The notes under the pieces: generated by a model | Told to the model about the DNA's origin: nothing | What the model saw: only the letters and a program-made list of their open reading frames with translations | Databases searched by the model: none | In this document: one piece after another, positions 1,257 to 20,880 of the stretch | How the letters are laid out: the number at the start of each line of letters is the position of its first letter | How positions within the stretch are numbered: the first letter of the stretch is position 1 | Translations under genes and position numbers: made by a program | Virus record (IMG/VR): IMGVR_UViG_3300025131_000483 | Span: 1-22,238 of that record | Direction: 5' to 3' (one strand) | DNA: 22,238 nt | From: a virus

Positions 1257-1285
1257 ATTATAACACACTTACATGGTTATGGCAA
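1257..1285 (-). promoter_or_regulatory. Sigma70 promoter of uvsX/recA
   Basis: On the minus strand the -35 box TTGCCA (1285-1280, 5/6 match) is separated by exactly 17 bases from a perfect -10 box TATAAT (1262-1257). TGT immediately precedes the -10, giving an extended -10. It overlaps the last codons of the methyltransferase gene (stop at 1277) and lies a little over 20 bases before the recA start. It shares the 11-mer AGTGTGTTATA with the SSB promoter at 4381-4409. Such a site should be read by the host vegetative polymerase without a phage factor. Confidence 0.8.
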
Positions 1286-2134
1286 GCATGTAATAATAAT
1301 TTCTGATGAATTCCCCATCTTTTTCTTTTCTGTTTGGGTTTTCGATTTGACGTTCTTCATTCCCATGGCCCACTTGGCTTCGACAATATCATACTCTTTA
1401 TATAATTCTCGAATCTCTGCGCAATCGTTATAGGATAATATCCAGTTGGACCGTTGAGAGATTATATCATAGAGTCCCCGATGATCAAACCCAAAGTGAG
1501 TGTTTCCCTTGTCTCCATAAAGTTTATCTTTGTCGGCGCCTAGCATATAAGGGGGATCCAGATAGAGCAACGCATCAGAATGCGCTGGGATTGATTGCTT
1601 AAAATCTTTTTGTTCAACTGTGAGATTAGGTTCTTTAAAGTCTCTAAGGCGGTCGATAGAGGAGTCCGTAAACCGCGCATAAGACGCACGCTCTGACCAT
1701 CCTCCACTAAAGGTCGCTCCCGAAAAGCTGCTACGATTAATAGCATAAAACTTGGCAGCGTTTGCATAAGTATAATTACGAGAGTAGCGAATGGCTTGTC
1801 GCAGTTCTTCTCGAATTCGCTCGAAATCTTGACGGAGCAATCCGCGCCCCCAAACTAATTTTCCCTTGTGTTCATATTGATTGGGGCCCGAGCGCAGTTG
1901 GTCAGCTTTTTTTGCTATGAGGAATGGATCGTCCAAGAGGGAGCGCCAGAACCAAACCAACGGTCTGAATAGATCATATCCATACACTCGTGTTCCACGC
2001 TCTGCGAGCGCTAACTCAAATGAGCCGCCCCCAAGAAAGGGGGAGCAAAGCTCCCCACAGTCTTCGGGCACGAACTCCATTAACGTTTTGACCGCGCGGC
2101 TTTTGCCGCCGGGGTACCGCAATGGAGTTTTCAT
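1277..2134 (-). CDS. dam: Dam-type N6-adenine DNA methyltransferase
   Basis: D12-class adenine-N6 DNA methyltransferase that uses S-adenosylmethionine; GATC is the usual target of the Dam branch, but the site is not provable here. In 285 residues: the N-terminal LRYPGGKSR (5-13), the SAM-binding motif I PFLGGGSFELAL (about 32-43), an NRSSFSG segment (about 133-139) and the catalytic motif IV DPPY (193-196). These are in the order of the alpha/T4 Dam group and the length is typical. The start overlaps the stop of the upstream AIPR-like gene as ATGA, so the pair is one translational unit. GATC is common in the window (for example within several GGATCC sites), so it has not been purged. Likely roles are protection from host restriction or timing of replication and packaging. 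No cognate restriction endonuclease is visible. Confidence 0.9.
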   Translation of the reverse strand: MKTPLRYPGGKSRAVKTLMEFVPEDCGELCSPFLGGGSFELALAERGTRVYGYDLFRPLVWFWRSLLDDPFLIAKKADQLRSGPNQYEHKGKLVWGRGLLRQDFERIREELRQAIRYSRNYTYANAAKFYAINRSSFSGATFSGGWSERASYARFTDSSIDRLRDFKEPNLTVEQKDFKQSIPAHSDALLYLDPPYMLGADKDKLYGDKGNTHFGFDHRGLYDIISQRSNWILSYNDCAEIRELYKEYDIVEAKWAMGMKNVKSKTQTEKKKMGNSSEIIITCLP

Positions 2135-3414
2135 CTTTTCCAGGTGCCGCTATCAATGACATCTTCAAAAACATCCGCGGATCTATCCCAGAGGTTCGAC
2201 CAACAGCCGAACTCAGCATGTCGAGAATTAAAGCGCGCATTAAAATATCGCTTAAAGCGATCATCAAGCATGCTCAATACCGCATAACCAGCCTCATCCC
2301 AAATTGCTTTAAGTTCAGACATATTCAGACCATCACGGATAATTACTTTTTCGGTTTTCCGATCAACTTTTAAGATGTTCTTAAGAAACCCATACATGAC
2401 GGGCTGCATATAATCCGAGAGCAGGGCAGTCCCTGCGCGCGTCCCATCAAAAAGCTGCTGGGAAAAGAACTTTCTCTTTTCAATGGGCTTTTTCATATCG
2501 GCTTTTCCAGACTTGCGTACCACCTGAAGCGAATCAAAGAGTTCTCCCTCTTTCGCGTTTCTTTCAAAGGCGGTACGTAAATTCTTCTGAATGTAATCAT
2601 TCAAGTCAAGAATCAGATCGACATGAGAGAACAAGCGCTCAAAGTCTTGAGCCTTGTTGGCGTCTTCCAGGATCATCGTGGAACGATATCCCTTGCGAAG
2701 AATGCTATGCATTTCATCGCCCGTATCCAGATAGTCACTACGTAACGTGGGGACGGCTGTGTAAATGAGAGATACGACTCGATCAATGCGGCACTCCTTA
2801 TCGATCAACTCACCGCCAGTGTTGCGTTCATTCTCGCGCCAGCCAATGTTACTCTTATGGCTATCCGTAAGATAAGTCTTGAGAATATCAAACAACCCTC
2901 GTTGATTCTGTTCGCTATTAAGCTTTTGGACATCACGCGAGTTCCAGGTTTCGGCCGCCTTGCGAATCTGGTCGACGCTATCAAAAAACCGATTTTCTAC
3001 AAACTGAATAGAAACTTGCTGGTTTTGAGCCTTGGGCGCTCCTTGCCGAACACCCTCAACGGTATGTTGTCCATCGTAGTGACCAGAGCCATCCTGCTCA
3101 CAAGTGAAAGAAATCGTGCATGCCTCCTGGTCATAATCAAACGAGTTATCATCAATGACGATACAAACTCCTCCATTATATATAGCAAACCCGCATTCTT
3201 CTTCCAGCGTCTGACGAATCGCCTTAACTTTTTTGGAATCGCTGTTTAGCGCGCGAGGATTGGTACCATTTTCAATATTGAAAAGGTCCATATGCTCAGA
3301 CACGCGAATATAAGCGTGTCCAAAGCGAGCCTCTTCTTCCGAGGCGGTAGCTACCGTCACAACTGACAGTGGCAGGTCCACATCACTGTGGGTGTATAGT
3401 TCTAAAGTATGCAT
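2131..3414 (-). CDS. AIPR-like protein (DGQHT motif)
   Basis: A 427-residue protein resembling the AIPR family (named after an abortive-phage-infection protein) and more loosely the DGQHR-domain proteins. Visible evidence: an AIYNGGVCIVIDD segment (about 77-89) like the AIPR 'yNNGi.ii' strand; an acidic segment ending HYDGQHTVEGV (112-122), at the place of the family 'NG.QT' motif; and downstream TWNSRDVQKLNSEQNQRG (about 157-173), like the conserved Asn/Asp segment that follows it. No membrane segment or signal peptide is present. The C-terminal 200 residues match nothing I recognise. AAGGAG lies 5 bases before the ATG at 3414. It is first in a two-gene unit with the Dam methyltransferase (ATGA overlap), suggesting a DNA-modification or anti-defence role. 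The biochemical activity of AIPR proteins is poorly defined, so the family call is moderate and the function is open. Confidence 0.6.
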   Translation of the reverse strand: MHTLELYTHSDVDLPLSVVTVATASEEEARFGHAYIRVSEHMDLFNIENGTNPRALNSDSKKVKAIRQTLEEECGFAIYNGGVCIVIDDNSFDYDQEACTISFTCEQDGSGHYDGQHTVEGVRQGAPKAQNQQVSIQFVENRFFDSVDQIRKAAETWNSRDVQKLNSEQNQRGLFDILKTYLTDSHKSNIGWRENERNTGGELIDKECRIDRVVSLIYTAVPTLRSDYLDTGDEMHSILRKGYRSTMILEDANKAQDFERLFSHVDLILDLNDYIQKNLRTAFERNAKEGELFDSLQVVRKSGKADMKKPIEKRKFFSQQLFDGTRAGTALLSDYMQPVMYGFLKNILKVDRKTEKVIIRDGLNMSELKAIWDEAGYAVLSMLDDRFKRYFNARFNSRHAEFGCWSNLWDRSADVFEDVIDSGTWKR

Positions 3415-3485
3415 TTATTCTCCTTGTGTTTTTAATAACTTGCATTTAGCTTCATCTGCCTATCTATAGGCGAAGCCTCTTAGCC

Positions 3486-3499
3486 TCTCCATATGGAGA
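3486..3499. promoter_or_regulatory. 14-bp perfect palindrome, possible operator
   Basis: TCTCCATATGGAGA is identical on both strands. It lies 12 bases downstream of the TATAAATA box and about 70 bases upstream of the AIPR-like start codon. A dimeric DNA-binding protein site is the simplest reading; in RNA it would form a hairpin without a proper loop, which argues for a DNA site. Confidence 0.4.
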
Positions 3500-3511
3500 A
3501 CGTGGTCTTTT

Positions 3512-3519
3512 TATTTATA
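3512..3519 (-). promoter_or_regulatory. TATAAATA box, T4-late-like or sigma70 -10
   Basis: The minus strand reads GGATATAAATAAAAAG. TATAAATA is the exact T4 late-promoter octamer recognised by gp55-type sigma factors. It also contains TATAAA, a 5/6 sigma70 -10, with only a weak TTAGTA at -35 spacing of 17. It lies just after the SSB terminator, where a new promoter is needed for the AIPR-dam unit. No gp55 homologue is in this window, so the class is undecided. Confidence 0.4.
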
Positions 3520-3544
3520 TCCTTGACCACTGTGGATACTAATT

Positions 3545-3575
3545 AAAAAGGTGGCAGACTTTTCCCGGTCTGCCA
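3545..3575 (-). terminator. Intrinsic terminator after SSB gene
   Basis: On the minus strand an 8-bp perfect stem TGGCAGAC/GTCTGCCA (3575-3568 with 3559-3552) with an 8-base loop is followed by CC and five T (3549-3545). It begins a few bases after the SSB stop at 3587, so SSB is a single-gene unit between its own promoter and this terminator. Confidence 0.85.
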
Positions 3576-3586
3576 GCGGGGCGAGC

Positions 3587-4354
3587 CTAGCCTGCTACCA
3601 GTTCATTAAACGCACGATCAACGTCAGTAGTTTCGGTCGTACTATACTTAGTAGTCTCAGATGAACGCGACTCAGCGGATCCGTCTCCGGCAAGTTGTTC
3701 ATCAAGAATAGCGCCGACCTGTTCGGGACTAAGGCGGTCGAAAAGACCGTCAAAGTCCGGAATGCCATCAAGGAGGGCGGGGATGGCCTCAGTATCCTCA
3801 AGTAATGTTGAGGTATTACGACGCATTTTCAGGCTCGTCTGTGGGTAAGCACCGGGTTTGGTGGGCTTGGTATAAGTAAGAGTAATATCAGTGCCCTCCT
3901 GAGCGTCTGTGACGTCACCATACTCCGGGTCAAGGATGTAGCCAAGAAGAAGTTCGTATGCGGTCTTACCATAGCCATATACCTTAATTCCCTCGTCTTC
4001 TCGACCACGAACCACAACGGGTGAGAAATAGCGAGTGCGCACAAAGAGTGACTTTGCAAGCTTCTTACTTTCCTCGTCGTTGTTGTCGCTTCCTTCTCGC
4101 CAGAGCGAAGAAGCGAATTCGCAAATTGGACAACCTTCTCCAAAGTTACGCTTGGGGCACAAAACACCGCCCCTATGCTCTCCTACATTATAGTGAAAGA
4201 ACATTTCCTTCAAAGGATCTCCATCATTAGTGGGAACAATACGAATATCCGTATCTCCCTCGTCGGGTTTGAACCAGATAGACTGGCCATCCCCACTATT
4301 TTGGCCGCGCAAAGTTGCGAGCTTGCGGCGCATAAGCTCCATATCAATTGACAT
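3587..4354 (-). CDS. gp32-like ssDNA-binding protein
   Basis: Binds and protects single-stranded DNA at phage replication and recombination forks. The 255-residue protein has a basic N-terminus (MELMRRKLATLRG) followed by a core containing a zinc-binding pattern H54-C66-C75-C78 (FFHYNVGEH...LCPKRNFGEGCPICEF), close to the H64-C77-C87-C90 spacing of T4 gp32. Aromatic residues follow (VRTRYFSP, VYGYGKTAYELLLGYI), typical of the OB-fold groove. The C-terminal tail is Ser/Thr/Asp/Glu-rich and ends DVDRAFNELVAG, matching the acidic tail used by gp32 for partner proteins. T4 gp32 is about 300 residues, so this is somewhat short. AAGGAG lies 10 bases before the ATG. A sigma70 promoter and an intrinsic terminator make it a monocistronic, probably highly expressed gene, as expected for a stoichiometric protein. 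Confidence 0.85.
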   Translation of the reverse strand: MSIDMELMRRKLATLRGQNSGDGQSIWFKPDEGDTDIRIVPTNDGDPLKEMFFHYNVGEHRGGVLCPKRNFGEGCPICEFASSLWREGSDNNDEESKKLAKSLFVRTRYFSPVVVRGREDEGIKVYGYGKTAYELLLGYILDPEYGDVTDAQEGTDITLTYTKPTKPGAYPQTSLKMRRNTSTLLEDTEAIPALLDGIPDFDGLFDRLSPEQVGAILDEQLAGDGSAESRSSETTKYSTTETTDVDRAFNELVAG

Positions 4355-4380
4355 TATTCAATTTCTCCTTTTGTGAATAA

Positions 4381-4409
4381 AGTATAACACACTCAACTTG
4401 AAGAGTCAA
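4381..4409 (-). promoter_or_regulatory. Sigma70 promoter of the SSB gene
   Basis: On the minus strand -35 TTGACT (4409-4404, 5/6) is followed after 17 bases by -10 TATACT (4386-4381, 5/6), again with TGT before it (extended -10). It lies 27 bases before the SSB start and overlaps the 3' end of the tubulin-like gene (stop at 4393). It shares AGTGTGTTATA with the uvsX promoter at 1257-1285. Confidence 0.8.
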
Positions 4410-5241
4410 GAGTATTTTGTACTACGTTTGTGTGGGCAACGCAGAACCCAAAATCATCATGTTCGGTTTCGTATATGGCATACGAAAGTTTTCTAAAAGC
4501 ATTTGTTGGCTTTTCTTTAAGCATTTCAACCAGTTTCTTGTGCAGACCACCCTCGGTCGCTAGTTTTTCTTCGTTTATACATATATAATAACATAGTTCA
4601 CGGGGGGTGTCAAGGTCAAAAAGCCATTTTTCTTCAAGATTTTCTATATCAAGTATCCCAATCGTTCTAATGCGATTTATCTCGGCTGGTTTAGATACTT
4701 GTCCAATCTCGGGATCCGAAAACTCAAAATAGTTTAAATAATGAATTGTAGAAAAAATAGAACTATTTAGCACCTCGTAATATGTCTTAATTGGCACCTC
4801 ACCTATCACTTTTTCAAGGTTTAAATTCGAAATCAAAGTAATAGAACGTAACAGGCCCGATCTACTATATTCTTGAAGGATATTGAATGTAATCTTTTCT
4901 AATATTTGAGGTACTCCTGTTAAAAGCTCTATGTCGGGTCTTATATAAAAGAGGTCTATTTCCTTGTCTTGGATTTGTTCTAAAATTCCAAGTACATAAT
5001 TAGAACTCATAGAAGAGCCCATTATGAAAACCTGCACCCTGCTCCTGATATCTGCGAAAAAATCTTTTAAGTCGGGAACATTAGTTTCATATTCTTCTGG
5101 TGAGCTAAAAGTTTTTAAGGTATGTGTTCGGGCCCCCTTTTCAGTTTTATCGTTTAATAGATATACTTCGTAGTTGTCTACATCAGAAAACTTTTCTGCG
5201 ATAGCTGACGCTGCGTTTCCGATTCCAATTACTGATATCAT
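4393..5241 (-). CDS. Divergent tubulin/FtsZ-like protein, degenerate GTP site
   Basis: A 282-residue protein whose layout follows FtsZ along the whole length. Residues 2-17 (ISVIGIGNAASAIAEK) sit where FtsZ has IKVIGVGGGGGNAVE. YEVYLLND (24-31) matches the strand ending in NTD. VQVFIMGSSMSSN (69-81) occupies the place of MVFITAGMGGGTGTG. SITLISNLNLEKVIGE (133-148) matches the SLIVIPNDKLL strand, then a long helix (about 150-172) and a C-terminal domain (about 214-275). The glycine-rich signature is replaced by GSSMSSN, and the T7-loop NxDxxD cannot be found (KPAEIN instead), so GTP binding and hydrolysis are doubtful. A Rossmann-type NAD-binding protein is the main alternative for the N-terminus alone. 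It starts in an ATGA overlap with the polymerase, which suggests a replication-linked or cytoskeletal role. The assignment rests on my reading by eye. Confidence 0.5.
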   Translation of the reverse strand: MISVIGIGNAASAIAEKFSDVDNYEVYLLNDKTEKGARTHTLKTFSSPEEYETNVPDLKDFFADIRSRVQVFIMGSSMSSNYVLGILEQIQDKEIDLFYIRPDIELLTGVPQILEKITFNILQEYSRSGLLRSITLISNLNLEKVIGEVPIKTYYEVLNSSIFSTIHYLNYFEFSDPEIGQVSKPAEINRIRTIGILDIENLEEKWLFDLDTPRELCYYICINEEKLATEGGLHKKLVEMLKEKPTNAFRKLSYAIYETEHDDFGFCVAHTNVVQNTLDSSS

Positions 5242-6422
5242 AGATTTAGCGCCTTAAGGTCATAATAATTATCACCGCAAGCTAAGTTAACCAAAAATTT
5301 ATCAAGCTTATTGTTTGAAAATATTTCTTTAATTTCGGGTACCAAACTACGTTCATCGTCCGCAAGATCAATAACAATCTCATCATGAACAACGTGTGAA
5401 ATAAATGACTTCTTTCCTTCTAAAAACTTATCTAATGCCACCGCACGATCCATTACAAGATCAGATGTTGTGCTTTGGATTAAGTAGTTAAGTGCTTTTC
5501 TTTTCTCAACTTGTATTTTACGCTTAAACATTGTTGTAATATAACCACGCTTATAGCGCTTGTCAAGAACTTTTTCGCGATGATAAATGCTAAATTCATC
5601 ATCATTGGCATCGGGATTATAGAGCCAAGCAAAAAATCTTGTCTTTGCATCGTCTCTTGTAATCTCTCCTTCAATAAGGTTCTTTATGTGCCACTGGTGC
5701 ACATCTTCTTGTGGCTGTTTCTCGCCAGCCAACGCAATGAAAGTGCGCACTTCTGCGGCATTATAATCAAGGGATAAAAACCACTCATTATGAGGCTTTA
5801 AAAGCTTGCGAAATTCTTTTTGGACCGTCAGTATGGGGAAGCTTTCTGAATGGGTTGTAAGGCGCCCTGTGACCGTGCCAAATGGATTATAGTCTATGTG
5901 CCGGGGCCCATTCAGCAGCACTTTCGCTCTGGTTGAATTCCGGGATGAAACATGCAGGTTTTTACAATCGTCGTTATTTAAATTAAGATTTTGATATCGT
6001 ATCTTATACAAAAGCTTTTGAATATTATTCAAATGATCATAGCATTCTGGTTTTTCATAATTCTCAAAAACATGTTCTGTTATCTTGTTTTTTATTTCAC
6101 AGAACTCTTTAAGAAAGTCTTCTGGGACAAGATCGAAAATACAGTGATCTCGCATATTAATCTTTGCTATCTGGAAAGACTTAATATATGCGCGCAATCG
6201 CTTTTGTGCTTTTTTGAGAGTTTCTTGAAGCTCTGTGGGGCATATCTGATTGAGCGCGAGTCCTTCACAAAATAACCATGCGTATTCCACATCGGCATCT
6301 GCGAGCGATCCGGAATACTTCCAAGTCCTTGTTAGATCTTGAGGAAAATTTTCATAATGAAGCTTTCCCTCCGCGTATACTCCAATGCACTCGGCCTTGT
6401 CGTCTATAGTCTGAAAAATCAT
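5238..6422 (-). CDS. polA: Compact family-A DNA polymerase (no exonuclease domain)
   Basis: Template-directed DNA polymerase of the Pol I/T7 family. Motifs in the 394 residues: FGTVTGRLTTHSESFPILTVQ (about 181-201, the 'GR.ss..PNLQ' region), motif A DYNAAEVR (219-226, Asp219 metal ligand), motif B R256-x3-K260-x3-F264-x3-Y268 aligning with Taq R659-K663-F667-Y671, an NYLIQSTTSDLV helix (about 312-323) and motif C VVHDE (344-348, Asp347). The Gly after the O-helix Tyr is Asn here. Klenow fragment has about 605 residues and T7 polymerase about 700, so the 3'-5' exonuclease and part of the thumb are absent. The N-terminal 180 residues show no exonuclease motif that I can see. The ATG follows directly on the TAG of the upstream gene with a poor Shine-Dalgarno, implying coupling. 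Proofreading may be absent or supplied by a protein outside the window. Confidence 0.85.
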   Translation of the reverse strand: MIFQTIDDKAECIGVYAEGKLHYENFPQDLTRTWKYSGSLADADVEYAWLFCEGLALNQICPTELQETLKKAQKRLRAYIKSFQIAKINMRDHCIFDLVPEDFLKEFCEIKNKITEHVFENYEKPECYDHLNNIQKLLYKIRYQNLNLNNDDCKNLHVSSRNSTRAKVLLNGPRHIDYNPFGTVTGRLTTHSESFPILTVQKEFRKLLKPHNEWFLSLDYNAAEVRTFIALAGEKQPQEDVHQWHIKNLIEGEITRDDAKTRFFAWLYNPDANDDEFSIYHREKVLDKRYKRGYITTMFKRKIQVEKRKALNYLIQSTTSDLVMDRAVALDKFLEGKKSFISHVVHDEIVIDLADDERSLVPEIKEIFSNNKLDKFLVNLACGDNYYDLKALNL

Positions 6423-17898: not shown

Positions 17899-20880
17899 TT
17901 AATCATCAAACGATGCTCCCGTGGAAGCAATCACAAAGTCAATTGCGATATATTCGATTGAGCGCGCGGGCTTAATCATAATCTTGGCATACAAGATATT
18001 TTGGTCAACCAAATCCGGAGTAGTAGTGGATTCATCAAGAATCAATCTAAACTCAGTGATTCCGAAGCTAACCTTGACATTCGCTAAGAATGGCTCAATA
18101 AGTCCTCTAAAGCGAGCCCAAGTATCTTGGACATTTTGCTCGAAAAGAATCTGTGTGGAGAGAATGGAAATCTGCTTCTTCAAGTAAATTACCAATCTTC
18201 TTACATTAATTCTATCGAGTGCAGATTGACGCTCTTGGAGGGTCTTCTGCCCGAAAACCACAATTCCACTAGATGGGAAAGAGGCAATCGGATTAATCCG
18301 TGCGTCATAGAGAGTGTCGCGCTCCTTGGAGGTTAACTTCTCTGTGACAGCAGTAATCGGAATTCCTGCTGCGCCATCGCTCAAGCCGCCGCGGTTGAAG
18401 CCTGCGGGGGCAAACCAAAGATCCGAACGTGCCTCAGAAGTACCAAGAACACCAAGCATTGCGACAGAGGGCGGTATCCAAACATTAACGCCAGACGCTT
18501 CATCTCGGGTTTGAACCCAAGGATAGAATGTGGCGCCATAGCTAGAATCAATTCTCCTGGCGCGAAGAGCATTCGCGGCCTGTTTCGGCGTAGTACCGAT
18601 TCTATTAACCTTGCTAGATTTTTGCGCCTCGTGAGGAGGAATGTACACGTTAGCCAAGTCAATAAGTGCCATGGCATCTGCGCGCTCTTCACAAACATTA
18701 ATCATATGCTGTGTTAATGCGTCCGTCGTTAAGCCGGGAACAGTAAGCACATTCATATCTAATGATTCAGGATCTGCTACGGTATCAATTGCTCTCTTAT
18801 AAGTATAATAAGGATAGCTATTGAATTCTGTAGAAGTAGAACCCATTTCTCCATTGCGGAGAGGATCTGGCTTCCTAATATCAAACCCGTCAAAGCCGCC
18901 GAAGAACGGAGCAGTGAAGCGATCATAACCCTTATCGAGCAAGTCGCCGTAGGAGGCGCTAGTTACACTAGTGCCAGCAACACGAGAGCCAGAGAGATAA
19001 AAATATGTACTCTTAGGCGAGTCAAGAGTAACGTTGTCCAGCGAGAAAACATAAGCATAGCCTTCTACGCCGGCATCAGAAGTCGAACTTGGATCATCAT
19101 CCTGGCCAGTGTACCAGGAGCGATGTACCCCTGCGACACTAACATCGTTTCTGGAGCTACCGTTTGCTCTTGTGTTTTGGAATCCAAAATAACCATCCGT
19201 GGGGTCAGACAAACCACCATCAGAGGCAGAAAGGCGAAGTCGTGCGACAGGGAAGGCTATAGAACCAGTCATTCCTAGGGTGCCACCCGCCGCTGGATCG
19301 GGGGTACCATCCCAGGCGGCGGACTGCAGCTTACCGAACAGATAGTAGCCATTTCCGGTGGAATTAGAAGCAGTAACAGGCGTACCATAAATTACGGAAG
19401 CAGGATTAAAAACCATTAAGTCTTGGGTGGCCAAATCGCCTGAACCTGTTACACTTGTTCCACTCTTGAAGCGGGGGGGCCCGAAATAACCGAAAGGCAG
19501 AAGCTCGGGGTCTGTGGCGCCGCCTTCAACATCGGAGTTCATTTCAACATATACAAATTTTGACTGATTCGGGTATTCGCCATAAGTCTTCAGACGACGA
19601 GCAGTAGTATCCCATTGCGTATACTTGTCTCCAATTACTCGCGAGATAAAATTGGGAGAGGCTGGATTTAATGTACAGTTATCAAAACGCTCCATTACCT
19701 CAACTGCGCTATCGGTATCAGAAAGCACGCGGAGAACAACACTAAATGAGCCATATTCACTAGCAGTAGTGGTAGACTTTCTAATATTCTCAATTGAAAC
19801 CTTACAGTTTCTTTGTAGCCACTCACCATGTCCACGACCTTTAAGTCTAAACAGTTTTTGCATGTTTTGGGGGACATAATCGGTTGGAGTACCAAGGTGC
19901 TGGCCAATAAACCAGCCGGCCTTAGCTTCCTGAGCGCTAAGGCCCAACATGTTGTGGGGACCTGTACCTACCGCACTATTAAGTGCGATGGGGAGCATGA
20001 CACCCTGCAGGGCTTGGGTCTGAGACGTTAAGTCGTTTCCGGTGGTGTCCGTGAAGCGTCCAGCGGTTTGAGGGCCGTCTCTCAATTCCTGTTCGAATGA
20101 TTCTCCAAGCCAATAAGTCTGATATGCGCCTGCCGGGAAAAAGGTGCCGGCTGTCGAAGCAAGCTGTGGGTTAGTCTGAAACCGCTTGCGAATGAAAAGA
20201 TCAGAAGAATCATCAAAGTTAAATCTAATCTTTTCGTTGGTAGAGCCGTCCTTTGCAACTTCAACCGTGAAAGAGCCAGCATTATTGGTATCATTTGCGA
20301 TTACCCAGCCAAGACCACCAGTAGGATGATTGAAGCCGGCAACGGTACCACTTAAAACAAATTGTGTGGCACTGTCTGCATACCAGACAGCAGCAAGAAC
20401 ACCGGGTTTTGTTACATCACCACCAAGAACGTTGGTAGATGAAGAGGGCCAAACCCAAAGACCATAAGCGCCTCCATTCGAGGCAAGGGCAGAAGCAGCG
20501 TTGTTTGATGTTTTCCAGCCGGCTTGAGCGGCTGTGGAACCGTCATTACCGCTGGACTGTTGTCCTAAAAGCCGAATGTATGTCAGGGGCGCCACATTTG
20601 AGCGCAAAAAAGCTTTAGCGGCATAAGTGCCGTACATTGGAGAAGTGCTGCCACCATTTCGATACACATCACCCACACCACCAATACCGGGTTCGGTATT
20701 TCCAAACATCTCAACGAATTCCGAATATGATTGTACCTTTACTGGCTGCATCGCTAGACCGCGACGAGCCCTACCGATAACAACTGGCCCGATAGCGTCT
20801 GCTGATTTGGGGATAAACGAATTATCAATTTCATTTATGAAAACGCCGGGAGATACAAATTTAAAGCTTTTTACTGACAT
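17899..20880 (-). CDS. Contractile tail sheath protein (gp18-like), enlarged
   Basis: Forms the contractile outer cylinder of the tail. It starts MSVKSFKFVSPGVFINEIDN, where SPGV (10-13) and the following acidic strand are the family start. VVIGRARRGLAMQPVKVQSY and EFVEMFG follow, then AKAFLRSNVAPLTYIRLLG. The C-terminal domain is also typical: LYDARINPIASFPSSGIVVF, the NVRRLVIYLKKQI helix, FEQNVQDTWARFRGLIEPFL, and ending SIEYIAIDFVIASTG. Total length is 993 residues against 659 in T4 gp18. The extra roughly 330 residues fall in the middle (about 120-700), which is rich in Ser, Gly, Thr and Asp and would project outward. AAGGA precedes the ATG at 20880. A strong terminator lies upstream after the gp15-like gene, so sheath transcription probably starts fresh. 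Confidence 0.92.
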   Translation of the reverse strand: MSVKSFKFVSPGVFINEIDNSFIPKSADAIGPVVIGRARRGLAMQPVKVQSYSEFVEMFGNTEPGIGGVGDVYRNGGSTSPMYGTYAAKAFLRSNVAPLTYIRLLGQQSSGNDGSTAAQAGWKTSNNAASALASNGGAYGLWVWPSSSTNVLGGDVTKPGVLAAVWYADSATQFVLSGTVAGFNHPTGGLGWVIANDTNNAGSFTVEVAKDGSTNEKIRFNFDDSSDLFIRKRFQTNPQLASTAGTFFPAGAYQTYWLGESFEQELRDGPQTAGRFTDTTGNDLTSQTQALQGVMLPIALNSAVGTGPHNMLGLSAQEAKAGWFIGQHLGTPTDYVPQNMQKLFRLKGRGHGEWLQRNCKVSIENIRKSTTTASEYGSFSVVLRVLSDTDSAVEVMERFDNCTLNPASPNFISRVIGDKYTQWDTTARRLKTYGEYPNQSKFVYVEMNSDVEGGATDPELLPFGYFGPPRFKSGTSVTGSGDLATQDLMVFNPASVIYGTPVTASNSTGNGYYLFGKLQSAAWDGTPDPAAGGTLGMTGSIAFPVARLRLSASDGGLSDPTDGYFGFQNTRANGSSRNDVSVAGVHRSWYTGQDDDPSSTSDAGVEGYAYVFSLDNVTLDSPKSTYFYLSGSRVAGTSVTSASYGDLLDKGYDRFTAPFFGGFDGFDIRKPDPLRNGEMGSTSTEFNSYPYYTYKRAIDTVADPESLDMNVLTVPGLTTDALTQHMINVCEERADAMALIDLANVYIPPHEAQKSSKVNRIGTTPKQAANALRARRIDSSYGATFYPWVQTRDEASGVNVWIPPSVAMLGVLGTSEARSDLWFAPAGFNRGGLSDGAAGIPITAVTEKLTSKERDTLYDARINPIASFPSSGIVVFGQKTLQERQSALDRINVRRLVIYLKKQISILSTQILFEQNVQDTWARFRGLIEPFLANVKVSFGITEFRLILDESTTTPDLVDQNILYAKIMIKPARSIEYIAIDFVIASTGASFDD

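Follow-up and report, generated by a model that had tools for sequence, protein, structure and literature searches.

We analysed a window of 22,238 nucleotides, corresponding to positions 1–22,238 of the IMG/VR virus record IMGVR_UViG_3300025131_000483. The window is phage sequence, as a first-pass annotation of the same DNA had stated, since it encodes a gp32-like single-stranded DNA-binding protein (SSB), a UvsX-like recombinase, a tail sheath and a gp53-like baseplate protein and derives from a virus record. Along the reverse strand, tail genes are followed by a piece of a family-A DNA polymerase, an open reading frame (ORF) of no assigned family, the SSB, two ORFs of 427 and 285 amino acids, and the recombinase. 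The features of the locus are:

3587–4354 (−): gp32-like SSB, left border of the cargo slot and anchor of the slot survey (Pfam gp32, 1.1e-14; PHROG 1192, 2.8e-23)
3552–3575 (−): terminator-like hairpin 3′ of the SSB gene (pattern scan)
3415–3530 (−): structured leader of the cargo operon (fold z-score, weak covariation, elements common to other slots)
2131–3414 (−): AIPR-like protein, 427 amino acids (hhalign, alignment, structure)
2968–3372 (−): AIPR-core region, about residues 15–149 (profile–profile comparison with hhalign)
3064–3084 (−): GHYDGQH motif, residues 111–117 (invariant in 18 family members)
2131–2134 (−): ATGA stop/start overlap coupling the AIPR-like and methyltransferase genes (ORF coordinates)
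1277–2134 (−): D12-class DNA N6-adenine methyltransferase, 285 amino acids (Pfam, PHROG, PADLOC, DPPY)
86–1234 (−): UvsX/RecA-like recombinase, right border of the cargo slot (PHROG 97 UvsX-like, 1e-60)

Both the 427- and the 285-residue ORF start with ATG and the four bases ATGA are common to the two, confirming the overlap described previously. Upstream of the SSB, positions 4393–5241 (−) encode a conserved protein with only a weak Pfam match, to F420_oxidored; its N-terminus (in L018, IIGLGQAGCNIADKF) resembles the glycine-rich start of FtsZ/tubulin or of a Rossmann protein. The 394-residue ORF at 5238–6422 (−) matches only the C-terminal part of family-A DNA polymerase, and relatives carry a separate 5′–3′ exonuclease gene 3′ of uvsX (L010), which together suggest a split polymerase. 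The tail sheath (17899–20880, −) has 993 residues, roughly double the length of PHROG 23, the sheath profile, and includes a long region that most phage sheaths do not match.

The 285-residue ORF (METHYLTRANSFERASE) encodes a D12-class adenine methyltransferase, with a Pfam MethyltransfD12 match of E = 1.3e-25 (91.1 bits against a cut-off of 22), matches to the PHROG 56 DNA methyltransferase (4e-44) and PADLOC MTase_II (1.5e-50) profiles, and a DPPY motif at residue 193. The earlier name ‘Dam’ was right as to class but went too far in detail: at 66.9 bits the protein stays below the curated cut-off of 114.85 for NCBIfam ‘dam’ (TIGR00571), so that ‘Dam’ serves as a loose family label that names no target site. 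Its closest named phage relatives are cyanophage methyltransferases at 33–35% identity. A scan of the window found neither depletion of GATC nor avoidance of any palindrome that would name the target site, and no cognate endonuclease gene, as expected of a type II restriction-modification system, lies beside the methyltransferase in the window.

Direct family searches with the 427-residue protein returned nothing usable in Pfam, NCBIfam, PADLOC, PHROGs or PDB sequences. The Pfam AIPR model (PF10592) gave no match at E ≤ 1, nor any at E ≤ 10 in genome searches, and PHP-domain matches in NCBIfam were rejected as far below cut-off. Relatives were found in IMG/VR only, with none among INPHARED phages, plasmids or GTDB genome contigs. 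We drew an AIPR reference set independently from bacterial, archaeal and viral contigs, using a DNA pattern for the AIPR motif [FY][FY]NNGITI; 107 of the sequences contained NGxQ[TS] as well, and from these we retained 51 that were non-redundant. All ten members sampled from this set matched Pfam AIPR, at 100–172 bits against a cut-off of 25.

Compared with these 51 proteins by hhalign, the phage family scored 49.4 (E = 1.2e-5, 81% probability, profile columns 15–149), against a maximum of 29.2 in 100 column shuffles (mean 15.4, s.d. 3.0) and 13.6 for the reversed profile. Across alignments, settings and member sets the probability was 61–93%; the C-terminal half of the family had no hhalign match to AIPR. 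In the profile–profile alignment, NPR, YNGG and DGQHT of the phage protein line up with the AIPR motifs N[IVL]R, YNNGIT and NGxQT, respectively, and N52, R54, G82 and G115 are invariant across 15 phage and 31 AIPR rows of a joint alignment. Within the phage family, NNGIT has mostly become NGG[VIM] and NGxQT has become DGQH[TS]; identity to sampled AIPRs is about 20%. The NNGIT motif lies at a median residue 269 of 574 in bacterial AIPRs and its counterpart near residue 79 in the phage protein, that is, about 190 residues earlier than in most bacterial AIPRs, which indicates a phage form without their N-terminal part.

Structure prediction points the same way. A first AlphaFold model built without AIPR rows was set aside, its N-terminal half being below a pLDDT of 50. 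With AIPR cores in the alignment, pLDDT rose from 61.8 to 92.3, a gain not due to the AIPR rows alone because on the phage side, too, the second alignment was the wider one. The top viral Foldseek match of the model is an annotated ‘AIPR protein’ from Podoviridae sp. ct8nN1 (E = 3.2e-7, TM 0.45), a match not fully independent because AIPR rows fed the model. Weak viral matches included GmrSD_N proteins (E = 0.06–0.12). Against the PDB nothing was significant, with no match below E = 0.3 and a pNOB8-like ParB-N at E = 1.3–2.6; by hhalign, the family matched neither GmrSD_N nor ParB.

Profile and model comparisons thus support a predicted remote relative of AIPR in a short form. Like AIPR (PF10592), an abortive-infection- and restriction-modification-associated family of bacteria and archaea, it has a core with N-x-R, NG/NNG and [ND]GxQ/DGQH in register; unlike AIPR, it falls below the Pfam model, has DGQH[TS] for NGxQT and a C-terminal half of its own, and sits in a phage operon. 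Its catalytic activity is not readable from the sequence. The AIPR likeness first proposed from the sequence therefore stands as remote homology, while direct HMM support for it is absent; the profile search proposed at the time yields profile–profile matches to both AIPR and DGQHR families and does not reach the curated Pfam AIPR model. The link to DGQHR, also proposed then, holds in part. The motif GHYDGQH[TS], whose first seven residues are invariant in 18 family members, resembles that of DGQHR domain proteins (TIGR03187/PF14072, DndB-like) and is aligned on it in a weak profile match (TIGR03187; hhalign E = 1.4e-3, 17.5%), but the final R is absent, replaced by T or S, and no phosphorothioation genes were seen in the window.

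We surveyed the genomic setting by anchoring on the SSB gene, which yielded 150 complete SSB–uvsX intervals, or 121 after dereplication by SSB identity and slot content. The survey took the best 80 of about 550 confirmed matches per scan and favours the closest relatives of two anchor sequences. Within it (best 80 of about 550 per scan), 49 of the 121 dereplicated slots were empty, 33 held a D12 methyltransferase and 13 an AIPR-like gene, nine with and four without a methyltransferase; because of the way they were dereplicated, these counts are not independent evolutionary events. Recurrence of the pair in other phages, the check suggested by the first-pass annotation, was thus found, but as an arrangement that is not obligate. 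Solo AIPR-like genes occur in L012–L015, L019–L021, L325 and L329; the records of the four AIPR-only slots, which may be fragments, showed no D12 methyltransferase at any other place.

The position between SSB and uvsX, together with a copy 3′ of uvsX in L018, would also suit an ordinary replication or recombination factor that works with these two proteins. With 49 of 121 slots empty and no AIPR-like copy elsewhere in long records (up to 166 kb) with an empty slot or other cargo, we regard such a role as very improbable.

The methyltransferase also sits in slots alone or with unrelated partners, and the position before it can instead hold DGQHR-like, ParB-like, GmrSD_N/NsnA-like or MzaB-like genes. 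Occupants, all from metagenome fragments, include a DGQHR-like family (C281; hhalign 87%, E = 3.9e-6), a ParB-like protein found without methyltransferase (C308; hhalign 83%, E = 9.7e-6), a GmrSD_N/NsnA-like protein (C353; Pfam 6.2e-5, PADLOC NsnA 2e-19), an MzaB-like GHKL ATPase (C293; PADLOC 9.2e-25), a family annotated as ParB in one cyanophage (C294; weak in hhalign, E = 0.03) and a possible nuclease (C296). Classes of unassigned partners rest on small alignments, and C299, C319, C282 and C326 bear a motif-like resemblance to ParB-type proteins that profiles do not firmly support. In L002, L297, L299, L301/L303 and L419, a PD-(D/E)xK-type protein with invariant E, SD and ExK is encoded 3′ of the methyltransferase, and the L002 operon combines it with AIPR-like and methyltransferase genes; the earlier remark that the locus has no nuclease is accurate for the window but not for the same locus in relatives. 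Five long records carry a methyltransferase in the slot; in none of them did a D12 match lie outside it.

Methyltransferase and supported ParB-type or AIPR partners co-occur (Fisher p = 2.4e-6 across all slots, p = 0.036 in the close set), an association that arises because both share the slot; among cargo-bearing close relatives, with a wider partner list, it disappears (p = 0.51). An obligate AIPR–methyltransferase pair was accordingly rejected, on the strength of this test and the solo genes.

The shortened core invites a reading as a counter-defence decoy, in which a truncated AIPR core would poison a host defence complex containing AIPR (Mza-like, for instance) and the methyltransferase would let the phage escape restriction by the host. 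The early position of the core motif (near residue 79 against a median of 269) would fit, as would the MzaB-like protein in the same slot of other phages, as expected of part-homologues of host defence proteins. A decoy should, however, resemble its target, whereas the phage protein is only about 20% identical to sampled AIPRs, and one genome scan turned up no bacterial protein closely related to it. Some partners, moreover, look like whole effectors (a helicase with a possible nuclease in L318/L348), and we consider a decoy rather improbable.

Exchange at the slot proceeds gene by gene. Whatever the partner, its gap to the methyltransferase gene is mostly −4 to +3 nt, with exceptions in L023, L301/L303 and L326. 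Between the window and L290, nucleotide identity is 84% for SSB, 53% for the AIPR-like gene and 97% for the methyltransferase, with the drop limited to the AIPR-like gene and its leader; methyltransferases at 99% amino acid identity adjoin AIPR alleles at 44%. Conversely, L002 and L003 share an AIPR-like protein at 99% and a methyltransferase at 58% amino acid identity. In the methyltransferase tree, L005 (AIPR) joins L294 (ParB-like) and L011 (AIPR) joins L293 (MzaB-like), each with support of 100/100, and the AIPR label requires six changes, at least four of them forced by well-supported branches. These comparisons show that partners and alleles have been swapped at the slot, as judged from identity patterns and tree topology.

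Such swapping bears on whether the AIPR-like protein is a regulator or accessory, in the manner of DndB in phosphorothioation systems or of ParB-fold/methyltransferase fusions, that binds nucleotide and adjusts the sites or the extent of methyltransferase action; the module would then do no more than protect the phage from host restriction. Tight gene coupling favours this reading, as do the DGQHR-like motif with its weak profile match: DndB has been described as a repressor that depends on ATP, both ATP and GTP are bound by a DndB-like protein, and ParB-fold domains of phages are often fused to methyltransferase domains (PMC12704722). Yet AIPR-like genes occur without a methyltransferase, related methyltransferases pair with unrelated proteins, and a 99% identical methyltransferase beside AIPR alleles at 44% is unlike what a specific subunit would give. 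On balance, a purely regulatory partner seems unlikely, though it merits serious consideration.

The borders of the slot are sharp. Cargo begins right after the terminator-like hairpin of SSB, and empty relatives keep this hairpin and continue directly into the uvsX leader, the sequence at the hairpin being near-identical in empty and filled slots; the hairpin comes from a pattern scan, whose matches are near chance level as a class. In the window, the leader at 3415–3530 (−) contains a hairpin GTGGTC..GACCAC with an AAGG/A-rich loop (3502–3530), a second hairpin CTCC..GGAG (about 3486–3500) and a third, bipartite one (about 3449–3476), and its Shine-Dalgarno sequence could pair with UUCUCC. 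The fold is more stable than all 200 shuffles (z-score −3.6); covariation across six sequences is weak because these are few. The conserved leader lies upstream of cargo in the window, L290, L286, L009, L011, L016, L326, L353 and L419, and its first hairpin is found before unrelated cargo as well (L353, L419 and L326). No Rfam family matched the leader at the gathering threshold, and looking for the hairpin at other sites with a crude regular expression yielded noise only.

In L290, L293, L294, L011 and L300, a common sigma-70-like promoter (TTGACA..TATATT type) lies just after the SSB terminator, before different cargo genes, so that cargo appears to come with its own promoter. A T4 late promoter (TATAAATA) before the AIPR-like gene was rejected, with one site in the window against 1.5 expected and no conservation.

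Precise empty and filled sites, and leaders and junctions common to unrelated genes, might be expected if the cargo genes were homing-like cassettes or selfish modification cassettes, moving between phages through cutting or recombination at the SSB–uvsX junction and bringing the phage no benefit. Relatives of the ParB-like partner between other core genes in P-SSM3 and RN05-S, with no annotated methyltransferase adjoining, would suit this too. Most recognisable occupants, however, belong to restriction, modification or anti-phage families and not to homing endonuclease families, and methyltransferases are prominent among them, which leaves selfish insertion distinctly improbable.

Comparison of the contigs shows the SSB–uvsX interval to be an exchangeable cargo slot in uncultured marine myophages of a T4-like clade. 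The remote AIPR relationship, gene coupling, slot and exchange of partners and alleles are what our comparisons of predicted genes demonstrate; from them we tentatively favour an exchangeable module for modification and interference. The AIPR-like protein would be one of several interchangeable partners placed directly before, and translated with, the D12 methyltransferase. The methyltransferase would mark the phage’s own DNA, and the partner would act as a DNA-sensing switch or as an effector against wrongly marked DNA, alone or with a nuclease. The module would thereby protect the phage genome while harming phages that compete with it or other foreign DNA present in the cell. Counting against it are the unreadable catalytic activity and missing N-terminal part of the AIPR-like protein, the p value of 0.51, the four AIPR slots without methyltransferase and the lack of GATC depletion. 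Anti-restriction, superinfection exclusion and control of methylation, the roles first suggested, are all candidate functions of the pair.

Several known systems offer parallels. AIPR proteins are common in restriction-modification operons (PMC2292703, PMC3506569), and there is a link to DNA modification for DGQHR/DndB and GmrSD-type proteins, with nucleotide binding reported or proposed (PMC4619093, PMC10853773, PMC12704722). The ParB-fold/methyltransferase fusions frequent in phages (PMC12704722) likewise link a possible ParB-superfamily protein physically to a DNA methyltransferase; the pair in the window differs in being separate, coupled and swappable genes, in its D12 class and in that a ParB fold of the AIPR-like protein is only putative. 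An AIPR protein occurs in Mza-like systems (PMC9523054), and both MzaB-like (the Mza ATPase) and AIPR-like proteins occupy the slot, but in different phages: the two were not seen together, and none of the remaining components of Mza was found. P2-like phages and P4-like satellites have defence-gene hotspots (PMC9122126) that resemble the slot in offering exchangeable defence-type cargo at one fixed place in the phage core; the slot differs in its marine myophage clade, its position between SSB and uvsX and the recurrence of a methyltransferase in its cargo. The protein families at the slot are thus already known, and what seems new is the occurrence, in marine myophages, of a short AIPR core at a swappable locus with a methyltransferase, of which we found no description in the literature searched, a body that left out most subscription journals.

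Bacterial systems of defence and modification repeatedly include AIPR, DGQHR/DndB, GmrSD_N and ParB-type proteins, and the action of AIPR is poorly understood. That close relatives exchange the short AIPR core for members of the other families at the same position suggests, and does not prove, equivalent jobs. We therefore propose, as a plausible but far from assured generalization, that marine myophages keep an SSB–uvsX slot pairing an adenine methyltransferase with swappable AIPR-like, DGQHR-like, ParB-like, GmrSD_N-like and GHKL (MzaB-like) partners, which would be functionally equivalent parts of a modification-and-interference system against rival phages or host defence. Slot content suggests that the module may be an exchangeable weapon, aimed at rival viruses or at the defences of the host. 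The two-gene phage system offers a small setting in which to test the role of the AIPR core, and the slot marks where uncharacterised phage weapons might be sought within a large marine clade that is uncultured.

Related genes also occur outside this arrangement. The cyanophage relatives of the C294 ParB-like partner, at 3974–5038 of L437 (P-SSM3) and 3989–5074 of L438 (RN05-S), lie between other core genes, one behind the major head protein gene and one close to genes for clamp loader and polymerase, and the stretch shown has no annotated methyltransferase beside either. In L018, an AIPR-like gene (3911–5206) is found 3′ of uvsX. More distant relatives (L365, L367, L372, L377–L379, L393 and L417) have a slot with small genes, among them one for an FKBP-type isomerase-like protein, and in L022 an FKBP-like gene (1509–1943) lies between the AIPR-like gene and uvsX.
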